Notes under the pieces: model-generated
What the model saw: the letters and a program-made list of their open reading frames with translations, nothing else
What the model was told of the DNA's origin: nothing
The model's database searches: none
Origin: Paludibacter sp.
Lineage (GTDB): Bacteria; Bacteroidota; Bacteroidia; Bacteroidales; Paludibacteraceae
Direction of reading: 5' to 3'
Assembly (NCBI GenBank): GCA_028691965.1
Contig: JAQUYE010000029.1
Location: 1 to 33,082, forward strand
Length of the DNA stretch: 33,082 nt
Shown here: one piece after another, positions 4,890 to 24,973 of the stretch
How the letters are laid out: each line of letters begins with the position of its first letter
Position numbering within the stretch: position 1 is the stretch's first letter
Translations under genes and position numbers: made by a program

Positions 4890-5666
4890 TTATTGTTGTT
4901 CAGCAACAGTATCTCCATCAGCTAATTGCTGGTCGACAAGTATACGTCCGCAATACTCACAAACGATAATTTTTTTACGTTGCCGGATATCCAGTTGTTT
5001 TTGTGCCGGGATCTTATTGAAGCAACCACCGCAGGTATCACGGGTAACTGATACAACAGCCAGTCCGTTACGTGCATTTTTGCGAATACGTTTGAAAGCA
5101 GTCAATAAATTAGGTTCAATTCGGCTTTCGATCGATTTGGCAAACTCACGAAGCTTTTCTTCTTCCTGTTTTGTTTCAGCCACAATTTCGTCCAGCTCTC
5201 CTTTTTTCTCTTCAAGATCCAGTTTGCGTTCTGTAAGTTGAGCAATAGTTTCCTTTTGCTCAGCAAGTTTCAGATCTTTGGAAATTTTATATTCACGAAT
5301 ATGTTTTTCGCTTAACTCGATTTCAAGTGTTTGAAATTCAATCTCTTTTTCAAGATTCTCGTGTTCACGGTTATTCCGGACATTGTTCTGTTGTTCCTGG
5401 TACCGTTCAATCTTAATACGAGATTCTTCGATTGAAATTTTCTTACCGGCAATCATTGATGTGTACTCATTGATCTCCCGTTCAAAATGCTCTATGCGGG
5501 TATTTAACCCCATGATCTCATCTTCAAGATCCTGGACTTCGAGTGGTAATTCGCCACGAAGTGTCTTAATTTCATCAATTTTGGATACAGCCTTTTGAAG
5601 ATCATAAAGGGCAAAAAGCTTATCTTCTACTGTGATTTCCTTATCAATCTTGTTCTCTGTTGTCAT
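4890..5666 (-). CDS. Coiled-coil protein with C4 zinc ribbon (DUF164/CdsZ type)
   Basis: A 258-residue protein. Residues ~15-185 are a long charged helical hairpin typical of antiparallel coiled coils. Residues ~205-242 hold a zinc ribbon with Cys 212 and 215 (CGGC) and Cys 236 and 239 (CEYC). This architecture is the family annotated as C4-type zinc ribbon or nucleic-acid-binding Zn-ribbon protein; studied relatives suggest a role linked to RNA or translation, but I cannot assign one here. The start at 5666 is 4 nt after the nif3-like stop, so the genes are almost certainly cotranscribed and perhaps translationally coupled. The gene is the last of the run, ahead of the terminator at 4826. 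Confidence 0.85.
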   Translation of the reverse strand: MTTENKIDKEITVEDKLFALYDLQKAVSKIDEIKTLRGELPLEVQDLEDEIMGLNTRIEHFEREINEYTSMIAGKKISIEESRIKIERYQEQQNNVRNNREHENLEKEIEFQTLEIELSEKHIREYKISKDLKLAEQKETIAQLTERKLDLEEKKGELDEIVAETKQEEEKLREFAKSIESRIEPNLLTAFKRIRKNARNGLAVVSVTRDTCGGCFNKIPAQKQLDIRQRKKIIVCEYCGRILVDQQLADGDTVAEQQ

Positions 5667-5670
5667 TTTA

Positions 5671-6768
5671 TTACAAATATAGAATGGGATTTGTACTTAC
5701 GTTTGAAATACGGACTGCAAAGGTAGGAAATTTTTTCGAAATAATTTCATACATCAGGTCTTTTGTATACTGTTCGGTCTCATAATGACCTGCATCCACC
5801 AGTACCAACTGACCTTCGGCTTGCATAAATTCGTGGTATTTAATATCGGCAGTTATGTATACATCTGCTTTGGCAGTCAGTGCATCGGGTATGAGGAAGC
5901 TCCCCGAACCACCGCAGACAGCAATACGTTGCACCTCAGCTTGTACAATAGCAGTATGCCGGAGCGATGGTACCTGAAACACCTGTTTCAGATGATTCAG
6001 GAATTCAGTGGTTGATACAGGTGCTGGCAGTGTACCCACTACCCCTGCTCCTACCTGCTCCCATTTGTTGCTGATGGGGAGAATGTCATAAGCCGGTTCT
6101 TCGTATGGATGAACCTGTTTTAACGCGCTTACAACGCCGGATACCAGTACCTTAGGCACTACCAGCTCTAACCTGATTTCAGGTTCGAAATGAAGTTGAG
6201 CGGACTTACCCACAAAAGGTTGTGCGCCCTCTCCTGCTCTAAACCTCCCAATTCCTTCGCCTGTAAAACTACAGGAGTCGTACTTACCTATTGTACCGGC
6301 TCCCGCTTCGAACAAAGCATTACGAACCTTACTTACAAGTAATTTTGGTACATAAGTAACTAATTTACAGAGTGAGTCACTCATCGGAGCAAGAATCCTG
6401 CAATTTTCCAACCCAAGTTTAGCAGCAATTTTACCGTTAACACCCTCGAATACATTGTCGAGATTTGTATGGGCTGCATACAGGGCAATGTCATTTTTGA
6501 TAGAAGCAGTTACGCAACGCTGCACCTCATTTTGTCCTGTCAACCGCTTTAAGCCATTAAAAATGATCGGATGATGGGCAATAATCAGGTTATATTTCAG
6601 CTCGATTGCTTCCTGTATAACTGCTTCGGTAACATCGAGACATAGTAACACACCTGTTACCGGCTGCAGGTAATCCCCTACCAGTAATCCGGCATTGTCG
6701 TACTTCTCCTGAAGCGACAGAGGTGCCAGTTGTTCAAGTGTGTTGGTTATATCCCGTACCCGTACCAT
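5671..6768 (-). CDS. Nif3-like dinuclear metal centre protein
   Basis: A 365-residue NIF3/YbgI (DUF34) family member of the long form, with a PII-like domain inserted between the two halves. Metal ligands are visible as IIAHHPIIF (His 65, 66), HTNLDN (His 100, Asp 104) and, near the C-terminus, DAGHYETEQY (His and Glu). The family forms a toroidal hexamer; relatives have been described as GTP cyclohydrolase 1 type 2-like, but the biochemical role is unsettled. The neighbouring zinc-ribbon gene is 4 nt downstream and the DUF5606 gene ends 2 nt upstream; nif3 next to the zinc-ribbon gene is a recurrent pairing in Bacteroidota. Length and motifs are intact. Confidence 0.9.
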   Translation of the reverse strand: MVRVRDITNTLEQLAPLSLQEKYDNAGLLVGDYLQPVTGVLLCLDVTEAVIQEAIELKYNLIIAHHPIIFNGLKRLTGQNEVQRCVTASIKNDIALYAAHTNLDNVFEGVNGKIAAKLGLENCRILAPMSDSLCKLVTYVPKLLVSKVRNALFEAGAGTIGKYDSCSFTGEGIGRFRAGEGAQPFVGKSAQLHFEPEIRLELVVPKVLVSGVVSALKQVHPYEEPAYDILPISNKWEQVGAGVVGTLPAPVSTTEFLNHLKQVFQVPSLRHTAIVQAEVQRIAVCGGSGSFLIPDALTAKADVYITADIKYHEFMQAEGQLVLVDAGHYETEQYTKDLMYEIISKKFPTFAVRISNVSTNPILYL

Positions 6769-6770
6769 TC

Positions 6771-7187
6771 TTATTCAGCAGTTTCGACAGTTTCTTTTAC
6801 TTCGTCAAAGTCGGACATACCACTTTTGACCAAAATATTATACCAGTTGAACAACTTACGCATATCGCTTGGATACACCCTGTCTTTATCATAATCAGGA
6901 AGAATTTCGGCCATGTATTTTTTAAGTGCAGCATTGTCGGCCTTAGCTTCAACCGGACATTGGCCACCATTTTCCTTCGTTTTAATATTGTTCAGCACCT
7001 GGCGAAGGGGTACCTCTTCTGTTTCAGTAAAAATGGCAATATCACTAAGTGAAACCACTTTATCTCTCGAATAAGAAGGCATACGTTTACCATCCAGTAA
7101 GGATTCAACTACCAACATATTTTTGCCCTGAGATACTAATTTGTAAAGCCCTGGCTTACCAGAGATGGATAAAATTTCTTTCAACAT
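6771..7187 (-). CDS. DUF5606 family protein
   Basis: A 138-residue protein that I recognise as the Bacteroidota-specific DUF5606 family from its start MLKEILSISGKPGLYKLVSQ and the later LPDYDKDRVYPSDMRKLFNW. A TTG codon at 7196 extends the frame by three residues, but the ATG at 7185-7187 gives the conserved N-terminus. The N-terminal ~50 residues look like a small beta domain; the C-terminal half is helical and acidic. No signal peptide or membrane segment, so cytoplasmic. Function unknown. It is packed between the purF-like gene (13 nt) and the nif3-like gene (2 nt). Confidence 0.85.
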   Translation of the reverse strand: MLKEILSISGKPGLYKLVSQGKNMLVVESLLDGKRMPSYSRDKVVSLSDIAIFTETEEVPLRQVLNNIKTKENGGQCPVEAKADNAALKKYMAEILPDYDKDRVYPSDMRKLFNWYNILVKSGMSDFDEVKETVETAE

Positions 7188-7200
7188 ACGATTCAATCAA

Positions 7201-9003
7201 TTATAATAATTCTTTACCTTCGTAATAGTTAATAAAAGCCTGATTTACAAGTCTGTTACCGCCTGGTGTGGGATAATCGCCCGTAAAATACCAGTCGCCG
7301 GTGTGGTTCGGACATGCCTTGTGCAACCCTTCGATCGTTTGATATACCAGCTGAACCGGACAATCAACATCTTCAGGGGTTAGCATGAGGGCAATCTGCG
7401 CCGATACTTCTTCCTGCGAAAAGGGCGCATATATTTCCTTCACGTAATTTACAACCTGTTCTTTTGGCAATGATTGCTGCGCTTTCGATTTTTTATAAAC
7501 ATCATCGATGATCGACTGCAACCCTCTGTCTTTCAGCAACTGAATAGCTGCCCGGAATGCACAGAACTCAGACATTCTCGACATATCTATACCATAGTAG
7601 TCGGGATACCGAACTTGCGGCGACGAAGATACTATAACAATCTTTTTAGGCTCCAGACGATTCATTATTTTTAACAAACTTTGTTTTAAGGTAGTACCCC
7701 TAACAATAGAATCGTCAATAGCAACAAGGTTATCCTGTCGGCCACGGCGTGTCGAACCATAGGTTACATCATACACATGGGTGGCTAAATCGTCACGCTC
7801 CTTATTCTGGGAGATAAAGGTACGCAGTTTAATGTCCTTAATGAGTACCTTCTCGGTGCGTATTGAATCTGTAGTTTTATTTTTAATACCGTCGATCATA
7901 CCATAAAAGGCCACTTCGGCGGTATTTGGAATAAACGAAAATACTGTATTCTGAATATCTCCGTCGACTACATCCAGTATGCGGTCGGCCAGCGATTCAC
8001 CAAGTTTCTTTCGTTCACGGTAGATGTCGTAATCGCTGCCACGTGAAAAATAGATGCGTTCGAACGAGCATTGTTTTAGTTCGGGAGCAGCCTCACGTAT
8101 AGTTTCAAAAAAGATGGTACCATCTTTCTTAATAATCATCGACTGACCAGGCATTAATTCCTTTACCTGCGATTCGGTAACGTTAAAAGAAGTCTGTATA
8201 ACCGGTCGTTCCGAAGCCACCACAGCAATTTCATCATCCACATAATAGAAAGCCGGACGAATCCCTTTCGGATCCCGGAAAGCAAAGGCATCGCCATGAC
8301 CCAGCATGCCCGTTATCACATATCCCCCATCCCACAGATGTTCTGATTTACGAATAATGGAAGGGATATCCAATTGTTGTTCAATCTTTTGAGTTATTGT
8401 AATATCATTGGTATAGCGTTGCTTAATTAAATCATACTCCTTCTGTACTTCCATATCTAACCGGAAGCCCAGTTGTTCAAGCATCAAAAAGGTATCGCTG
8501 GTATCACGGGGGTGTTGCCCTTTCAGTGTGAGGTAATCAAACAACTCATCAACATTCGTGAGGTTAAAGTTGCCGGCAAGTACCAGGGTCCGGTTTTTCC
8601 AGTTATGCCTGCGCAAAAAAGGATGGATATGCGTGACTCCGGCTTTGTGGTTGGTAGTACTATACCGCAGGTGCCCCAGGTACAATTCGGCAGCAAACGG
8701 AATTCTCGACTTAATAGTCGACACATCATTAAACTCATCACACGAGAGTTGACCGACCGTCTCATTTACATTTGCAAAGATTTCCTGAATCGCATTTTTG
8801 CCTTCTATCCTGTCTCTCCAGATATATTCCTCACCGGGAGGCATATCCAGTTTGACTCCGGCAATTCCGGCCCCTTCCTGACCTCTGTTGTGTTGTTTTT
8901 CCATCATAAGATACATTTTCTGCAATCCATATTGCCAGGTACCATATTTCTGATGGTAATACTCTAAAGGCTTTAACAACCTTACCATTGCGATTCCGCA
9001 CAT
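7201..9003 (-). CDS. PurF-like class II amidophosphoribosyltransferase family protein
   Basis: A 600-residue protein with an N-terminal Ntn-type glutaminase (Cys2 in MCGIAM, exposed after Met removal; QHNRGQEGAG at 37-46; GHLRYSTT near 110) and a C-terminal phosphoribosyltransferase domain with the PRPP loop VAIDDSIVRGTTLKQS (about 427-442). Canonical PurF is near 470-500 residues; this is the longer form found in Bacteroidota alongside, or instead of, a standard PurF, with extra sequence after the N-terminal strand (LKPLEYYHQKYGTWQYG) and around residues 340-410. The likely reaction is PRPP plus glutamine to phosphoribosylamine, the first step of purine synthesis, but the specificity of this subfamily is inferred. 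It follows glmS by 32 nt, so two class II glutaminases are adjacent. Confidence 0.85.
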   Translation of the reverse strand: MCGIAMVRLLKPLEYYHQKYGTWQYGLQKMYLMMEKQHNRGQEGAGIAGVKLDMPPGEEYIWRDRIEGKNAIQEIFANVNETVGQLSCDEFNDVSTIKSRIPFAAELYLGHLRYSTTNHKAGVTHIHPFLRRHNWKNRTLVLAGNFNLTNVDELFDYLTLKGQHPRDTSDTFLMLEQLGFRLDMEVQKEYDLIKQRYTNDITITQKIEQQLDIPSIIRKSEHLWDGGYVITGMLGHGDAFAFRDPKGIRPAFYYVDDEIAVVASERPVIQTSFNVTESQVKELMPGQSMIIKKDGTIFFETIREAAPELKQCSFERIYFSRGSDYDIYRERKKLGESLADRILDVVDGDIQNTVFSFIPNTAEVAFYGMIDGIKNKTTDSIRTEKVLIKDIKLRTFISQNKERDDLATHVYDVTYGSTRRGRQDNLVAIDDSIVRGTTLKQSLLKIMNRLEPKKIVIVSSSPQVRYPDYYGIDMSRMSEFCAFRAAIQLLKDRGLQSIIDDVYKKSKAQQSLPKEQVVNYVKEIYAPFSQEEVSAQIALMLTPEDVDCPVQLVYQTIEGLHKACPNHTGDWYFTGDYPTPGGNRLVNQAFINYYEGKELL

Positions 9004-9035: not shown

Positions 9036-10877
9036 CTATTCTACTGTTACTGATTTCGCTAAATTTCGTGGTTGATCCACATCACATCCTTTTACCACGG
9101 CAATATGATAGGCCATCAATTGCAACGGAATTGTAGCCAAAAGTGGTACCAGGCATTCTTCGGTATCGGGAATCTCGATGCAATAATCTGCCAGATTCTT
9201 TACAACCTCATCACCTTCGGTAATAATTGCTATGATTTTACCCTTACGGGCTTTGATTTCCTGAATGTTGCTCACTACCTTTTCATACATTCCGGTATTC
9301 GGAGCAATTACCACAATCGGCATTTCCTGACTGATAAGAGCAATCGGACCGTGTTTCATTTCGGCTGCAGGATAACCTTCGGCATGAATATAGGAAATCT
9401 CTTTCAGTTTAAGAGCACCTTCGAGGGCTACCGGGAAGTTGTATCATCGTCCCAGGTAGATAAAATTCTGAGCATAGGTAAATGTCTTTGCAAACTGCGC
9501 AATGCGTTCGTTCTGACTTAACAGGATCTTCATTTTATCAGGTATCCTGCCTAACTCTTTCACTATCGAAAGGTATTTCTCTTCGGGCAGGGTACCTTTC
9601 TCGCGTCCAATCATCAGTGCCAGCATTGTCAACACAGTAACCTGTGCTGTAAACGCTTTAGTAGATGCAACACCAATTTCGGGCCCGACATGCGTATACG
9701 CTCCTGAATCAGAATTTCTGGGGATAGACGACCCAACCACATTACAGATACCGAAAATAAAAGCGCCATGCGATTTTGCCAGTTCTACTGCAGCAAGGGT
9801 ATCGGCAGTTTCGCCCGATTGAGAAATAGCAATTACAATATCATTGGGGAAAATGACCGGTTTGCGGTACCGGAACTCCGATGAGTATTCCACTTCAACA
9901 GGTATTCGTGCGAATTCTTCAATCACATACATACCTATCAGTCCGGCGTGCCATGAAGTTCCGCAGGCAGTTATGATTATACGGCCTGCATTCAGAAACT
10001 TTTCCTTATTGTCGATAAATCCCGACAGTACCACATTATTCTCTTCGATATTCACCCTTCCACGCATCGAATCAGCAAGTGTTTGAGGTTGCTGAAAGAT
10101 TTCCTTGATCATGAAATGCGGATAGCCACCCTTTTCCAATTGATTGAGTGTTAGTTCCAGTTTCTTAATTTCAGGAGTCTTGACCACGTTGGAGATAGTC
10201 TTAATCTGAATATCTTTTCCGCGATGTAAGGTCACAATTTCCTCTTCGCCTACATAAATTACCTGATTGGTATATTCAATAATAGGAGTTGCATCAGAAG
10301 CAATGAAAAACTCATCTTCACCCAGTCCGACTACCAGCGGAGAACCCTTACGAGCAGCAACAATAGTATCGGGCTGCGACTTCTCGAGAACAGCTATCGC
10401 ATACGCACCTACCACCTGATTCAACGCTAATTGCACTGCTGTGGTAAGATCAACATGATTGGCTTTTTTTACAAATTCAATTAACTGAATCAGCACTTCT
10501 GTATCTGTTTCACTCTGAAAAGCATAGCCATTTGCAATTAATCCCTGCTTCAGTACGGCATAATTCTCAATGATTCCGTTATGAATGATGGCCAGTTCCT
10601 CCGATTGTGAATAATGAGGATGAGCATTCACTGTATTAGGCTCACCGTGGGTTGCCCATCGCGTATGAGCAATACCAACAGTTCCTGCAATATCTTTTTG
10701 TTGCGCAAAATGTACAAGGTCCGAAACTTTACCTTTTGCCTTGTATACGTTTAAATTTCCATTACTAATTAATGCAATACCTGCACTGTCGTAACCCCTG
10801 TATTCGAGTCGTTGTAAACCTTTGATCAATATAGGGTAAGCCTCTCTGTGGCCAATATATCCCACGATTCCACACAT
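9036..10877 (-). pseudogene. glmS: glmS interrupted by an in-frame TGA
   Basis: Glutamine-fructose-6-phosphate aminotransferase, which makes glucosamine-6-phosphate for peptidoglycan and LPS. The N-terminal glutaminase (MCGIVGYIGHREAYPILIKG, LEYRGYDSAG) and first SIS domain (ITACGTSWHAG, ISQSGETADTLAA) are intact, giving 477 residues up to FIYLGR. Then codon 478 is TGA (9444-9446), and the same frame continues [20 protein letters not shown] through [10 protein letters not shown] to [13 protein letters not shown] and TAA at 9036. GlmS proteins have glycine at that place (LGRG), so a GGA codon has become TGA by one base. The continuous product would be 613 residues, the normal length. No second lesion is seen, so the change is recent, or a sequence error, or recoded. 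It starts 29 nt after dapL. Confidence 0.92.
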
Positions 10878-10906: not shown

Positions 10907-12133
10907 TTAAAATTGGTTTTTAATTCGCTCAAGTGCCAGCACTGTATCTTCGTAACTACTAAAACCGGTAAAACGCATATAACCCTCTCCTGCTTGTCCG
11001 AACACAACACCAGGAGTTGCCACTATCTGATAATCATACAGTAGTAGCTGGAAGAACTTCCAGGAAGGCATATCGCCCGGTATTTTGAACCATACATAGG
11101 GTGAGTCGATGCCCCCGTAAACTGTTAAGCCTTCGCGAAGCAGTTGATTTCGTATAAGCGTAGTATTTCTTTTATAATAGGCAATTAATTGCTGCATCTC
11201 TGCTTTCCCTTTCCTGGAATAGGTAGCCTCGGCGCCCCGCTGTACGATGTACGATACACCATTTGTATAATTGGCGTTGCGCCGGCTCCAGAGTTTATTA
11301 AGAGCCACATTCCCGCCATATTGTGAATGCACGATTAACTCTTCAGGAAAAACCGAAAAGCCGCACCGTATTCCGGTAAAGCCATGACTTTTTGAAAAGC
11401 TTTGAATCTCGACAGCTACCTTCCGTGCTCCTTTTATTTCATAAATACTGCGGGGTACCTCCTTGTTCGAAACAAAAGCCTGGTAAGCAGCATCAAATAA
11501 GATAATGGCGTTATTCTCCAATGCATAATCCACCCACTTCTTAAGTTCGGTTTTATCCATGGAAGTGCCGGTGGGATTATTCGGGCTACACAGGTAGATG
11601 ATATCAACCCTCTCTTCAGGTAGTTCGGGCAGGAATCCGGTCTGCTCGTTGCATTTGAGGTATACTATATTACTCCATTTCTGGTCATCCAGCATTTCAC
11701 CGGCCCGACCGCTCATGATGGTTGCATTTTCGTATACCGGATACACCGGATCAGCAATCGCAATGATATTATCACGCCCAAGTACATGCCCGATATTGCC
11801 GATATCTGATTTGGCTCCATCGTTAATAAAAACTGACTCCTTACTAATTGTAATCCCTTTCGATCGGTAATCTTTCAGGATCTTCTCGATCAGGAAGTCG
11901 TAACCTTGCGGGGGACTGTACCCCCTGAAGGTGTCGGCTACCGATAATTCGTCGATAGCAGCATGCATAGCTTTAACTACTTCTGCTGGAAGAGGCCGAC
12001 TCACATCTCCGACTCCAAGACGAATGATTTTAGCAGTAGGATGAAGTAATTTATAGGCATTCACGCGCTTATCAATATCGTCGAAACAATAGATTTCGGG
12101 AGTCTTTAGATAATTTTCGTTTGCTAATGCCAT
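10907..12133 (-). CDS. dapL: LL-diaminopimelate aminotransferase
   Basis: A 408-residue class I/II PLP aminotransferase of the DapL family, which converts tetrahydrodipicolinate directly to LL-diaminopimelate using glutamate, bypassing the succinylase/acetylase steps. Diagnostic segments: PTAKIIRLGVGDVSRPLP, FRGYSPPQGYDFL, FINDGAKSDIGN, LCSPNNPTGT, and the PLP lysine near residue 248 in QSFSKSHGFTG. The length is normal. It is the first gene of the minus-strand run and sits 29 nt ahead of glmS, pairing two precursors of peptidoglycan. I could not find a clear TAnnTTTG promoter in the 89 bp upstream. A second enzyme acting on the same substrate, Ddh, is encoded ~6 kb away. Confidence 0.93.
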   Translation of the reverse strand: MALANENYLKTPEIYCFDDIDKRVNAYKLLHPTAKIIRLGVGDVSRPLPAEVVKAMHAAIDELSVADTFRGYSPPQGYDFLIEKILKDYRSKGITISKESVFINDGAKSDIGNIGHVLGRDNIIAIADPVYPVYENATIMSGRAGEMLDDQKWSNIVYLKCNEQTGFLPELPEERVDIIYLCSPNNPTGTSMDKTELKKWVDYALENNAIILFDAAYQAFVSNKEVPRSIYEIKGARKVAVEIQSFSKSHGFTGIRCGFSVFPEELIVHSQYGGNVALNKLWSRRNANYTNGVSYIVQRGAEATYSRKGKAEMQQLIAYYKRNTTLIRNQLLREGLTVYGGIDSPYVWFKIPGDMPSWKFFQLLLYDYQIVATPGVVFGQAGEGYMRFTGFSSYEDTVLALERIKNQF

Positions 12134-12222: not shown

Positions 12223-13212
12223 CTACTTTATTTCAATCAGGGTACGTCCCTTTAGCTGACCTTTCAAAATTTTCGCGACTGCATCGGGCACCTCCTCGAG
12301 CGTTATTTCGTTGAACATGGTCAACAACGCTTCGGGTTTGAAACCGCTTGCCAACTGTTTCCACAGTTCAGGGCGAAGGGTGGCTGGGTAATTTTGTGCC
12401 GAGATGCCAACGAGCGATACTGCTCTCAGAATAAAAGGAAAAACGTTTAAATTAAGCGTTGTTGACGATACACTACCACAGGTAGTTACTATGCCGTCCT
12501 GCTTAACCGACTTAATCATATTCACTAAGATTTCACCTCCTACTGTATCTACTGCTCCTGCAAAACGGGATGATAACAGTGGCTTTGGAGTTACTTCCTG
12601 AAAATCGCTTCGGGGATAAATCACCGAAGCACCCAAGGTACGCAAGAACTCATTTTCGGTTTCTTTACCTGAAATTGCATGTACTTCGTAGCCCAGACCA
12701 GCCAGCATGGCAACTGTCATCGAACCTACTCCTCCGGTTGCACCTGATACCAGTACTGCACCTGCCGAAGGTTGAATCTGTTGGATTATCTTCTGAACAG
12801 AAATAGCAGCTGTAAAACCGGCAGTTCCGAATATCATGGATTCCTTCATGGTTAATCCTTCGGGCAATGCCACTACCCATTCAGCCGGAACACGAATTAG
12901 CTGTCCCATGCCTCCCGGCGTGTTCATCCCTAAATCAAAACCGGTAACAATAACTTCCTGACCGGGATGAAAGAGAGGTGAGAGTGATTCTTCCACTACT
13001 CCGGCAGCATCAATTCCGGGAGTGTGAGGGTATTTTTTGGTTACCCCCTTGTTGCCTGTTACTGATAATGCATCCTTGTAGTTGAGGGATGAATAATGAA
13101 CCCGAACCAGCACATCTCCGGCAGGCAGAAATTGTTCAGAATCTAATTGCCTGATAGCAGAGTTAAACCTTCCATCCTGTGTTTCATCAATTACCAGTGC
13201 CTTGTATTGCAT
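12223..13212 (-). CDS. YhdH/AcuI-family zinc-less oxidoreductase (MDR superfamily)
   Basis: A 329-residue medium-chain dehydrogenase/reductase of the YhdH/YhfP/AcuI group: N-terminal GroES-like domain with SSLNYKDALSVTGNKGVTKK and PGIDAAGVV, then a Rossmann domain with SGATGGVGSM (about 157-165), and ends GRTLIEIK. Structural zinc cysteines are absent, as usual in this group. Characterised relatives are NADPH-dependent acryloyl-CoA reductases or quinone reductases; substrate here is not decidable from sequence. It is preceded by the bactofilin terminator (13248-13278), leaving only about 35 bp for its own promoter, and shows no link to dapL 89 bp downstream. Confidence 0.85.
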   Translation of the reverse strand: MQYKALVIDETQDGRFNSAIRQLDSEQFLPAGDVLVRVHYSSLNYKDALSVTGNKGVTKKYPHTPGIDAAGVVEESLSPLFHPGQEVIVTGFDLGMNTPGGMGQLIRVPAEWVVALPEGLTMKESMIFGTAGFTAAISVQKIIQQIQPSAGAVLVSGATGGVGSMTVAMLAGLGYEVHAISGKETENEFLRTLGASVIYPRSDFQEVTPKPLLSSRFAGAVDTVGGEILVNMIKSVKQDGIVTTCGSVSSTTLNLNVFPFILRAVSLVGISAQNYPATLRPELWKQLASGFKPEALLTMFNEITLEEVPDAVAKILKGQLKGRTLIEIK

Positions 13213-23632: not shown

Positions 23633-24973
23633 ATGAAAATCACAGAATATATTAAAGCATCCTACAAATTTATTACCCACGATTTGTGGCGAACAACAGA
23701 TGCGGAGCTGGCAAAGCATAAACGACTACCTTTCCGACTGTTAAAAGTGGTGATGATAGCCGTCAGAGGAGTAAGCCGTGATAATTTAAATATCAACGCC
23801 TCGGCCCTTACCTATTCGGTTATGTTTGCACTGGTGCCAATGATCGCCCTGTTTATTGCTATCGGTAAAGGGTTTGGGATTGAAGCCAGCATTAAAGACT
23901 GGCTGACTGAAGCAATGGCAGCTCAAAAAGAGTTGATTCCTTTTATCATGGGTTTTGTTGATCGTTATCTTGAATCGTCGCAGGGCGGATTATTTATTGG
24001 TATTGGTATTGTGATTCTGTTGGTTACTGTTATGAATTTACTTAACCAGGTTGAACGTACCTTTAATAATATCTGGCAGGTTAATAAATCACGTTCCTTA
24101 CTGAGGCAATTTACCAGTTATTTTTCATCTCTCTTTGTGATACCGGTCCTGATTGCACTCACGGGGGGTATCAATATTTACTTCAGCAACCTGCTCGATC
24201 AATGGCAGTTAACTAAAGTGCTTTCGCCGCTATTGACACTGGGAATGAAATTTACTCCCTATCTTATAAGCTGGTTGGTTTTCACAGCCATCTACATCTC
24301 TGTTCCCAATACCAAAGTAACCTTTAGAAGTGGATTTATAGCTGGTATCGTAGCAGGAACTGCATTTCAGTTTTTCCAGGTTTTATACATTGAAGGTCAA
24401 AGTTACCTTTCGCGTTATGATGTTGTATACGGTAGTTTTGCTGCCATCCCTTTATTATTATTGTGGCTGCAGATTTCGTTTACTATCCTTTTGTTGGGTG
24501 CCGAAATTTCATACGCTTCCCAGAACCTGCAAAACTACGACTACGAAGGTGATACAAATGCAATAAGTATTCGGTATAAAAAATTTATAAGTTTATTTCT
24601 TACCTATATAATTATTAAGCGTTTTGAAAACAACGAAGCCCCGGTTCGTGATGATGAGTTTTCAACACTCTACAAATTACCGATACGATTAATAAATCAG
24701 GTATTATCCGAACTTACCAATGCACGGATAATTACCGAAATTGTTGATAGCGATGAAAAGTCGAAAGCCTATCAGCCGGCCATGGACATTCATCAGTTAG
24801 ATATTAAAACCCTCTTCGAACGACTTGAATCAGATGGAGCTGAGTTGTTTCTCAGCAATAAAAGTGAAGAACTGGACAGGCTCTGGAATATATACCTCAA
24901 CCTGAACGACCCCGAACATAAGGAAGACGAGTTAAAATTGATAAAAGACATTTTGCTGGAAAAGAAAAAATGA
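23633..24973 (+). CDS. YihY/BrkB family membrane protein
   Basis: A 446-residue inner-membrane protein. After a cytoplasmic N-terminus, the domain of about six helices (residues ~55-300) carries NINASALTYSVMFALVPMIA, LLNQVERTFNNIWQV and YGSFAAIPLLLLWLQISFTI, all typical of YihY (once misnamed RNase BN). The C-terminal ~130 residues are soluble, charged, and look like a winged helix (FSTLYKLPIRLINQVLSELT, NARIITEIV). The family's transport role is unproven. An in-frame ATG at 23618 gives five extra residues; I prefer 23633 (MKITEYIKAS). It ends in TGA 9 bp before coaE. Confidence 0.88.
   Translation: MKITEYIKASYKFITHDLWRTTDAELAKHKRLPFRLLKVVMIAVRGVSRDNLNINASALTYSVMFALVPMIALFIAIGKGFGIEASIKDWLTEAMAAQKELIPFIMGFVDRYLESSQGGLFIGIGIVILLVTVMNLLNQVERTFNNIWQVNKSRSLLRQFTSYFSSLFVIPVLIALTGGINIYFSNLLDQWQLTKVLSPLLTLGMKFTPYLISWLVFTAIYISVPNTKVTFRSGFIAGIVAGTAFQFFQVLYIEGQSYLSRYDVVYGSFAAIPLLLLWLQISFTILLLGAEISYASQNLQNYDYEGDTNAISIRYKKFISLFLTYIIIKRFENNEAPVRDDEFSTLYKLPIRLINQVLSELTNARIITEIVDSDEKSKAYQPAMDIHQLDIKTLFERLESDGAELFLSNKSEELDRLWNIYLNLNDPEHKEDELKLIKDILLEKKK

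Follow-up and report, generated by a model that had tools for sequence, protein, structure and literature searches.

The gene glmS is usually essential, and isolated nonsense or consensus errors occur in draft metagenome bins, a subject on which we found no paper. Tannerella forsythia belongs to the same order as the Paludibacter-like bins considered here. This organism is reported to lack glmS naturally and to be also without glmU, murA and murB (PMC5790795). In M. smegmatis, depletion of glmS is reported to be rescued by GlcNAc or MurNAc (PMC13041923). A small literature search returned no published account of glmS loss in Paludibacter.

We examined the glmS locus in a 33,082-nucleotide stretch of DNA (the window) that belongs to a draft metagenome bin (G000; 3.04 Mb in 167 contigs, 89% complete). 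By glmS, the nearest named records are labelled Paludibacter sp., Bacteroidetes or Bacteroidales bins; from these labels we infer the bin's own genus name and call it Paludibacter-like. The glmS frame comprises 614 codons including the normal stop (613 before it), and its sole internal stop is a TGA at codon 478 (Table 1). With that TGA read through, the frame matches the profile for GlmS (glutamine-fructose-6-phosphate transaminase, isomerizing) over all 607 positions, above the cut-off of 418.05 bits, and has the same domains as the family. Each half also matches the profile alone, so the frame is not there by chance.

Table 1. Features of the glmS locus in the window (forward-strand coordinates)
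Feature	Position	Strand	Evidence
glmS, whole frame	10877-9036	-	TIGR01135 816.8 bits, positions 1-607
glmS before stop, 477 aa: glutaminase domain and first SIS	9447..10877	-	TIGR01135 594.7 bits, 1-471; Pfam GATase_6, SIS
In-frame TGA, codon 478 of glmS	9444..9446	-	Gly in 110/110 related loci
glmS after stop, 135 aa and normal stop: second SIS and C-terminal tail	9036..9443	-	TIGR01135 204.7 bits, 474-607; Pfam SIS
dapL (LL-diaminopimelate aminotransferase), upstream neighbour	10907..12133	-	TIGR03542 535.7 bits
PurF-like protein, 600 aa, downstream neighbour	7201..9003	-	TIGR01134 131.1 bits, cut-off 350
DUF5606/DUF6852 protein, syntenic	6771..7196	-	Pfam; gene-order comparison
Nif3-like protein, syntenic	5671..6768	-	Profile match; gene-order comparison
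Zinc-ribbon protein, syntenic	4890..5666	-	Pfam; gene-order comparison
YhdH-type oxidoreductase, upstream flank of relatives' deletions	12223..13212	-	TIGR02823 415.2 bits

G000 alone has a TGA where all 110 related loci encode glycine (GGA in 48, GGT in 28, GGC in 19 and GGG in 15); these comprise 30 loci from relative genomes and 80 from named records, with some genomes counted twice. The closest relative (G033), whose glmS is 93% identical, has GGA at this codon. The initial annotation had described a glmS broken at a conserved glycine by a single in-frame TGA with no other lesion, had proposed a GGA-to-TGA change and had advised comparing the codon in the closest relatives; the frame bears out the description, and the G033 codon fits the proposed change. 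The best glmS match is stop-free and full length in all 58 relatives with such a match (in G045 it extends to position 593 of 607). Gene order around glmS is identical in G000 and G033, and the downstream neighbours had been named correctly. The PurF-like protein scores well below the purF cut-off, and its gene adjoins glmS or its empty site in the compared loci.

Under the standard code the GlmS product of G000 breaks off after 477 residues, just where the second SIS domain begins, and this domain with its C-terminal catalytic residues is not made unbroken. In an alignment to E. coli GlmS, the residues corresponding to Glu488, His504 and Lys603, which we take to be the isomerase catalytic residues, all lie behind the TGA. 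A protein cut short in this way would therefore not be expected to form GlcN-6-P.

The sequence behind the stop is 97.8% identical to that of G033, and its three residue differences are all V/I/A exchanges. Over its 135 codons there are 77.5 synonymous and 6.5 non-synonymous differences, in keeping with the earlier remark that the run around the TGA is otherwise under normal constraint; the synonymous distance between the two glmS genes is saturated, so no dN/dS ratio is given. Private glmS residues in G000 and G033 number 16 and 15 with G069 as outgroup, and 22 and 12 with G068 (chi2 2.94), by which G000 glmS evolves at about the rate of its G033 counterpart. Neither the substitution counts nor the private residues relative to G033 support relaxed constraint in G000 glmS, and the gene holds no second lesion; neither mark of a pseudogene was found. 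Judged from these comparisons, the part after the stop is fully constrained. Constraint and ordinary rate together argue that glmS worked until very recently, or still does, and full constraint after the stop leaves two origins for the TGA, a consensus error in this draft assembly or an extremely recent change.

We favour a consensus error, introduced in base calling or assembly, at a probability of about 0.52. The TGA would then be a single-base error in an otherwise constrained glmS, and the living population would carry no TGA. Besides constraint on both sides of the TGA and the G033-like rate, the uniformly stop-free glmS of the 58 relatives and the location of the presumed catalytic residues behind the stop favour this reading. 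The main competitor, to which we give somewhat less than even odds, is a genuine, very recent nonsense mutation that would be the first step of glmS loss, with GlcN-6-P obtained elsewhere. The same lack of relaxed constraint and of a second lesion counts against such a mutation, which must be very young. Some features of the gene sit poorly with an error, however. At near-invariant columns of glmS, G000 carries two further private residues, E262Q and V521I, compared with none in G033, G068, G069 or G070 and a mean of 0.45 (highest 8) over 102 rows. Codon 262 is CAG in G000 and GAA in G033; two bases differ, so this is not one error. Nor do the neighbouring genes show an excess of odd residues: the PurF-like gene and dapL each have a single private residue at such columns.

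Other lesions in the bin bear on both readings. In a G000 sample of 413,540 bases (the window and 20 further stretches), 18 places had a coding look on both sides of a stop. By eye, 15 of these are a gene end before the next start, and three lie inside a gene: the glmS TGA, a single in-frame TAG in a GH115 glucuronidase gene (L231:881, contig C29; Tyr in both PDB homologues shown) and an in-frame TAA in a CE15 esterase gene (L236:5331, minus strand, contig C75; Asp in both homologues shown). At a run of G near position 8018 of L242 (contig C65), the frame shifts by one base in a gene whose G033 counterpart is open; this is either an error or phase variation. A 400,000-base sample of G033 listed 17 places, none inside a gene by eye; the seven doubtful stops were followed by no Pfam match and had longer frames beside or opposite them. 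A homology check covered 16,215 aligned codons in G000 and 15,354 in G033. It found two lesions in G000 (the glmS stop and the run-of-G frameshift) and none in G033, whose set included a stretch matched to the glmS locus. As with consensus errors in draft bins, the lesions of G000 are single and involve more than one type of stop codon, and the presence of isolated lesions of other kinds, with none in the G033 sample, favours an error at glmS.

We infer that the other G000 lesions are errors as well. A rough sum from the two other stops in 380 kb, assuming 88% coding sequence and 4-5% of random changes giving a stop, would put the error rate near 1e-4 per base and the chance that glmS shows a false stop near 1/100. 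This rate depends on just those two stops, and the GH115 and CE15 genes are both accessory carbohydrate genes that could credibly be decaying. The frame of the CE15 gene ends 54 positions into the 185-position CBM9 domain; the gene may carry a second, genuine lesion and be truly decaying, which would suit a nonsense mutation in glmS. Because the CE15 finding weakens the error sum, we lowered the probability of an error from 0.55 to its present value and raised that of genuine nonsense by as much.

A frame that stays open and constrained behind a TGA is also what would be seen if UGA were decoded as an amino acid, by a suppressor tRNA, the Sec machinery or a changed code, to give full-length GlmS. 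Several observations make this very unlikely. The gene prfB (release factor 2) is unbroken in G000 and above its cut-off at 454.1 bits, TGA terminates genes normally (for example at window position 24971), and the stops within two other G000 genes are TAG and TAA, so that nothing singles out UGA. The initial annotation had suggested looking for UGA-suppressor tRNA genes; among the 40 tRNAs found (RF00005) in this 89%-complete bin, after 150 of the 191 first-look candidates had been scored, all 40 anticodons were read by ARAGORN and none is UCA. The best tRNA-Sec score was 42.8 bits against a cut-off of 47 (150 of 245 candidates scored), and the top match is a tRNA-Ser. The TGA is present in the sequence, but its recoding is unlikely to explain the locus. 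More improbable still is a split GlmS, in which a second polypeptide started inside the gene would assemble with the first into a working enzyme. A 107-residue frame does start with ATG at 9359, but this restart would lose the first 28 residues behind the stop, among them the aligned counterpart of E. coli Glu488, and none of the 58 full-length relatives is split at the TGA site.

The initial annotation had also allowed for a second glmS or a nagB route. In the 89%-complete bin no second glmS was found (two other matches, on contigs C154 and C68, scored 30 and 20.4 bits); nagB is present. The annotation's list of options was fair: sequencing error and recent nonsense stay, recoding and suppression are weakened, and the second glmS did not appear.

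That close relatives have cleanly lost glmS is a more solid and more interesting result than the TGA. Three genomes of the same genus (G003, G006 and G029; 94, 95 and 92% complete) lack any glmS-level match and retain the PurF-like gene, with both flanks of the locus on the contig. In G029 (L168, C120) only glmS is missing: YhdH, dapL, PurF-like, DUF5606, Nif3 and zinc ribbon stand in the conserved order, and dapL and the PurF-like gene are 114 bases apart. In G003 (L169, C91) and G006 (L170, C93) both dapL and glmS are missing, the absence of dapL referring to the glmS locus only, and some 45 and 59 bases, respectively, lie between YhdH and the PurF-like gene. G000 has no such deletion, and G033 carries dapL and glmS at the same locus.

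A tree of the PurF-like protein alone (56 rows, some genomes twice and some rows partial) places 38 of the 48 genus genomes; G004, G008, G009, G010, G015, G019, G021, G027, G035 and G065 are absent from it. G000, G033, G068, G003, G006, G029, G069 and G070 form one group (100/99), in which G003 and G006 are sisters (100/100) and G029 falls with G069 and G070 (98/89). The latter two have glmS, beside dapL and the PurF-like gene. Because the tree parts G029 from G003 and G006, and G069 and G070 keep glmS, the simplest reading of these sequences is two separate glmS deletions, with G000 in the same group. Clean deletions between the same neighbours in the subclade that holds G000 make a real loss there more believable and to that extent count against an error. 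The group contains 8 of the 38 placed genomes, so that G000 would land in it by chance about one time in five, which is not rare.

Across the genus (48 genomes including G000), the other 47 comprise 35 with full-length glmS, five with glmS in pieces (G008, G018 and G035, at contig ends; G009 and G015) and seven with no glmS-level match. The seven are the three deleted genomes, in which both flanks were seen, together with G010, G019 and G027, which also have no PurF-like match, so that their lack of glmS is uninformative, and with G065. Other glmS-like sequences were observed as well. G054 has a second copy in two overlapping pieces (G054:C80:12643-14480; 1-368 and 365-607), with a full copy on another contig, and the G070 bin, for which a contamination of 6% is stated, holds two full-length copies. 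G010, G019, G021, G027, G062 and G070 have frames of about 390-400 residues that match the SIS part of GlmS only (about 226-253 to 597-598) and have no glutaminase part; the one in G019 holds two TAA codons.

Whether loss of glmS could be tolerated depends on other sources of GlcN-6-P. Intact nagB (TIGR00502) is present in G000 (404.8 bits), G003, G006, G029 and G033; since a genus-wide PF01182 search mixes 6-phosphogluconolactonase, NagB and NagB-like proteins, nagB is named only where TIGR00502 was scanned. The gene murA is above cut-off in 43 of 48 genomes, including these five, and glmM is present in all eight subclade genomes. The presence of nagB, glmM and murA in G000 fits a nonsense mutation. 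The gene nagA is patchy, above cut-off in 13 of the 48 genomes: six of the eight in the subclade (G003, G006, G029, G068, G069 and G070), four of the 30 remaining genomes in the tree (G014, G017, G023 and G025) and three of the 10 unplaced (G004, G021 and G027). All three glmS-deleted genomes are among them (probability under a random draw 0.0165 for three of three genomes, 0.069 for two of two events), and from their gene content they look able to take GlcN-6-P from GlcNAc-6-P. In contrast, no nagA was found above cut-off in G000 or its sister G033, and G000 would need reversed NagB or glucosamine uptake. The absence of nagA, in a bin that is 89% complete, speaks against a tolerated glmS loss in G000 and, with the lack of a second glmS, for an error.

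T. forsythia offers a natural precedent for a genuine loss of glmS in G000: G003, G006 and G029 are likewise without glmS, but the Paludibacter-like relatives retain murA and glmM, and T. forsythia has no murA (PMC5790795). Salvage in place of GlmS, as reported for M. smegmatis, finds a parallel in the nagA and nagB of the glmS-deleted relatives; that case is, however, a laboratory knock-down, and G000 has no nagA above cut-off (PMC13041923). It is a tentative and rather doubtful suggestion that G000 is taking the first step of losing de novo GlcN-6-P synthesis, as a further independent loss in one subclade, and would build peptidoglycan through GlmM and MurA from GlcN-6-P supplied by reversed NagB or from scavenged amino sugars.

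With a consensus error favoured, the TGA alone is probably of little weight, and its genomic context is worth more. The three genomes without glmS but with glmM and murA are a natural test of whether salvage or reversed NagB can sustain the cell wall.
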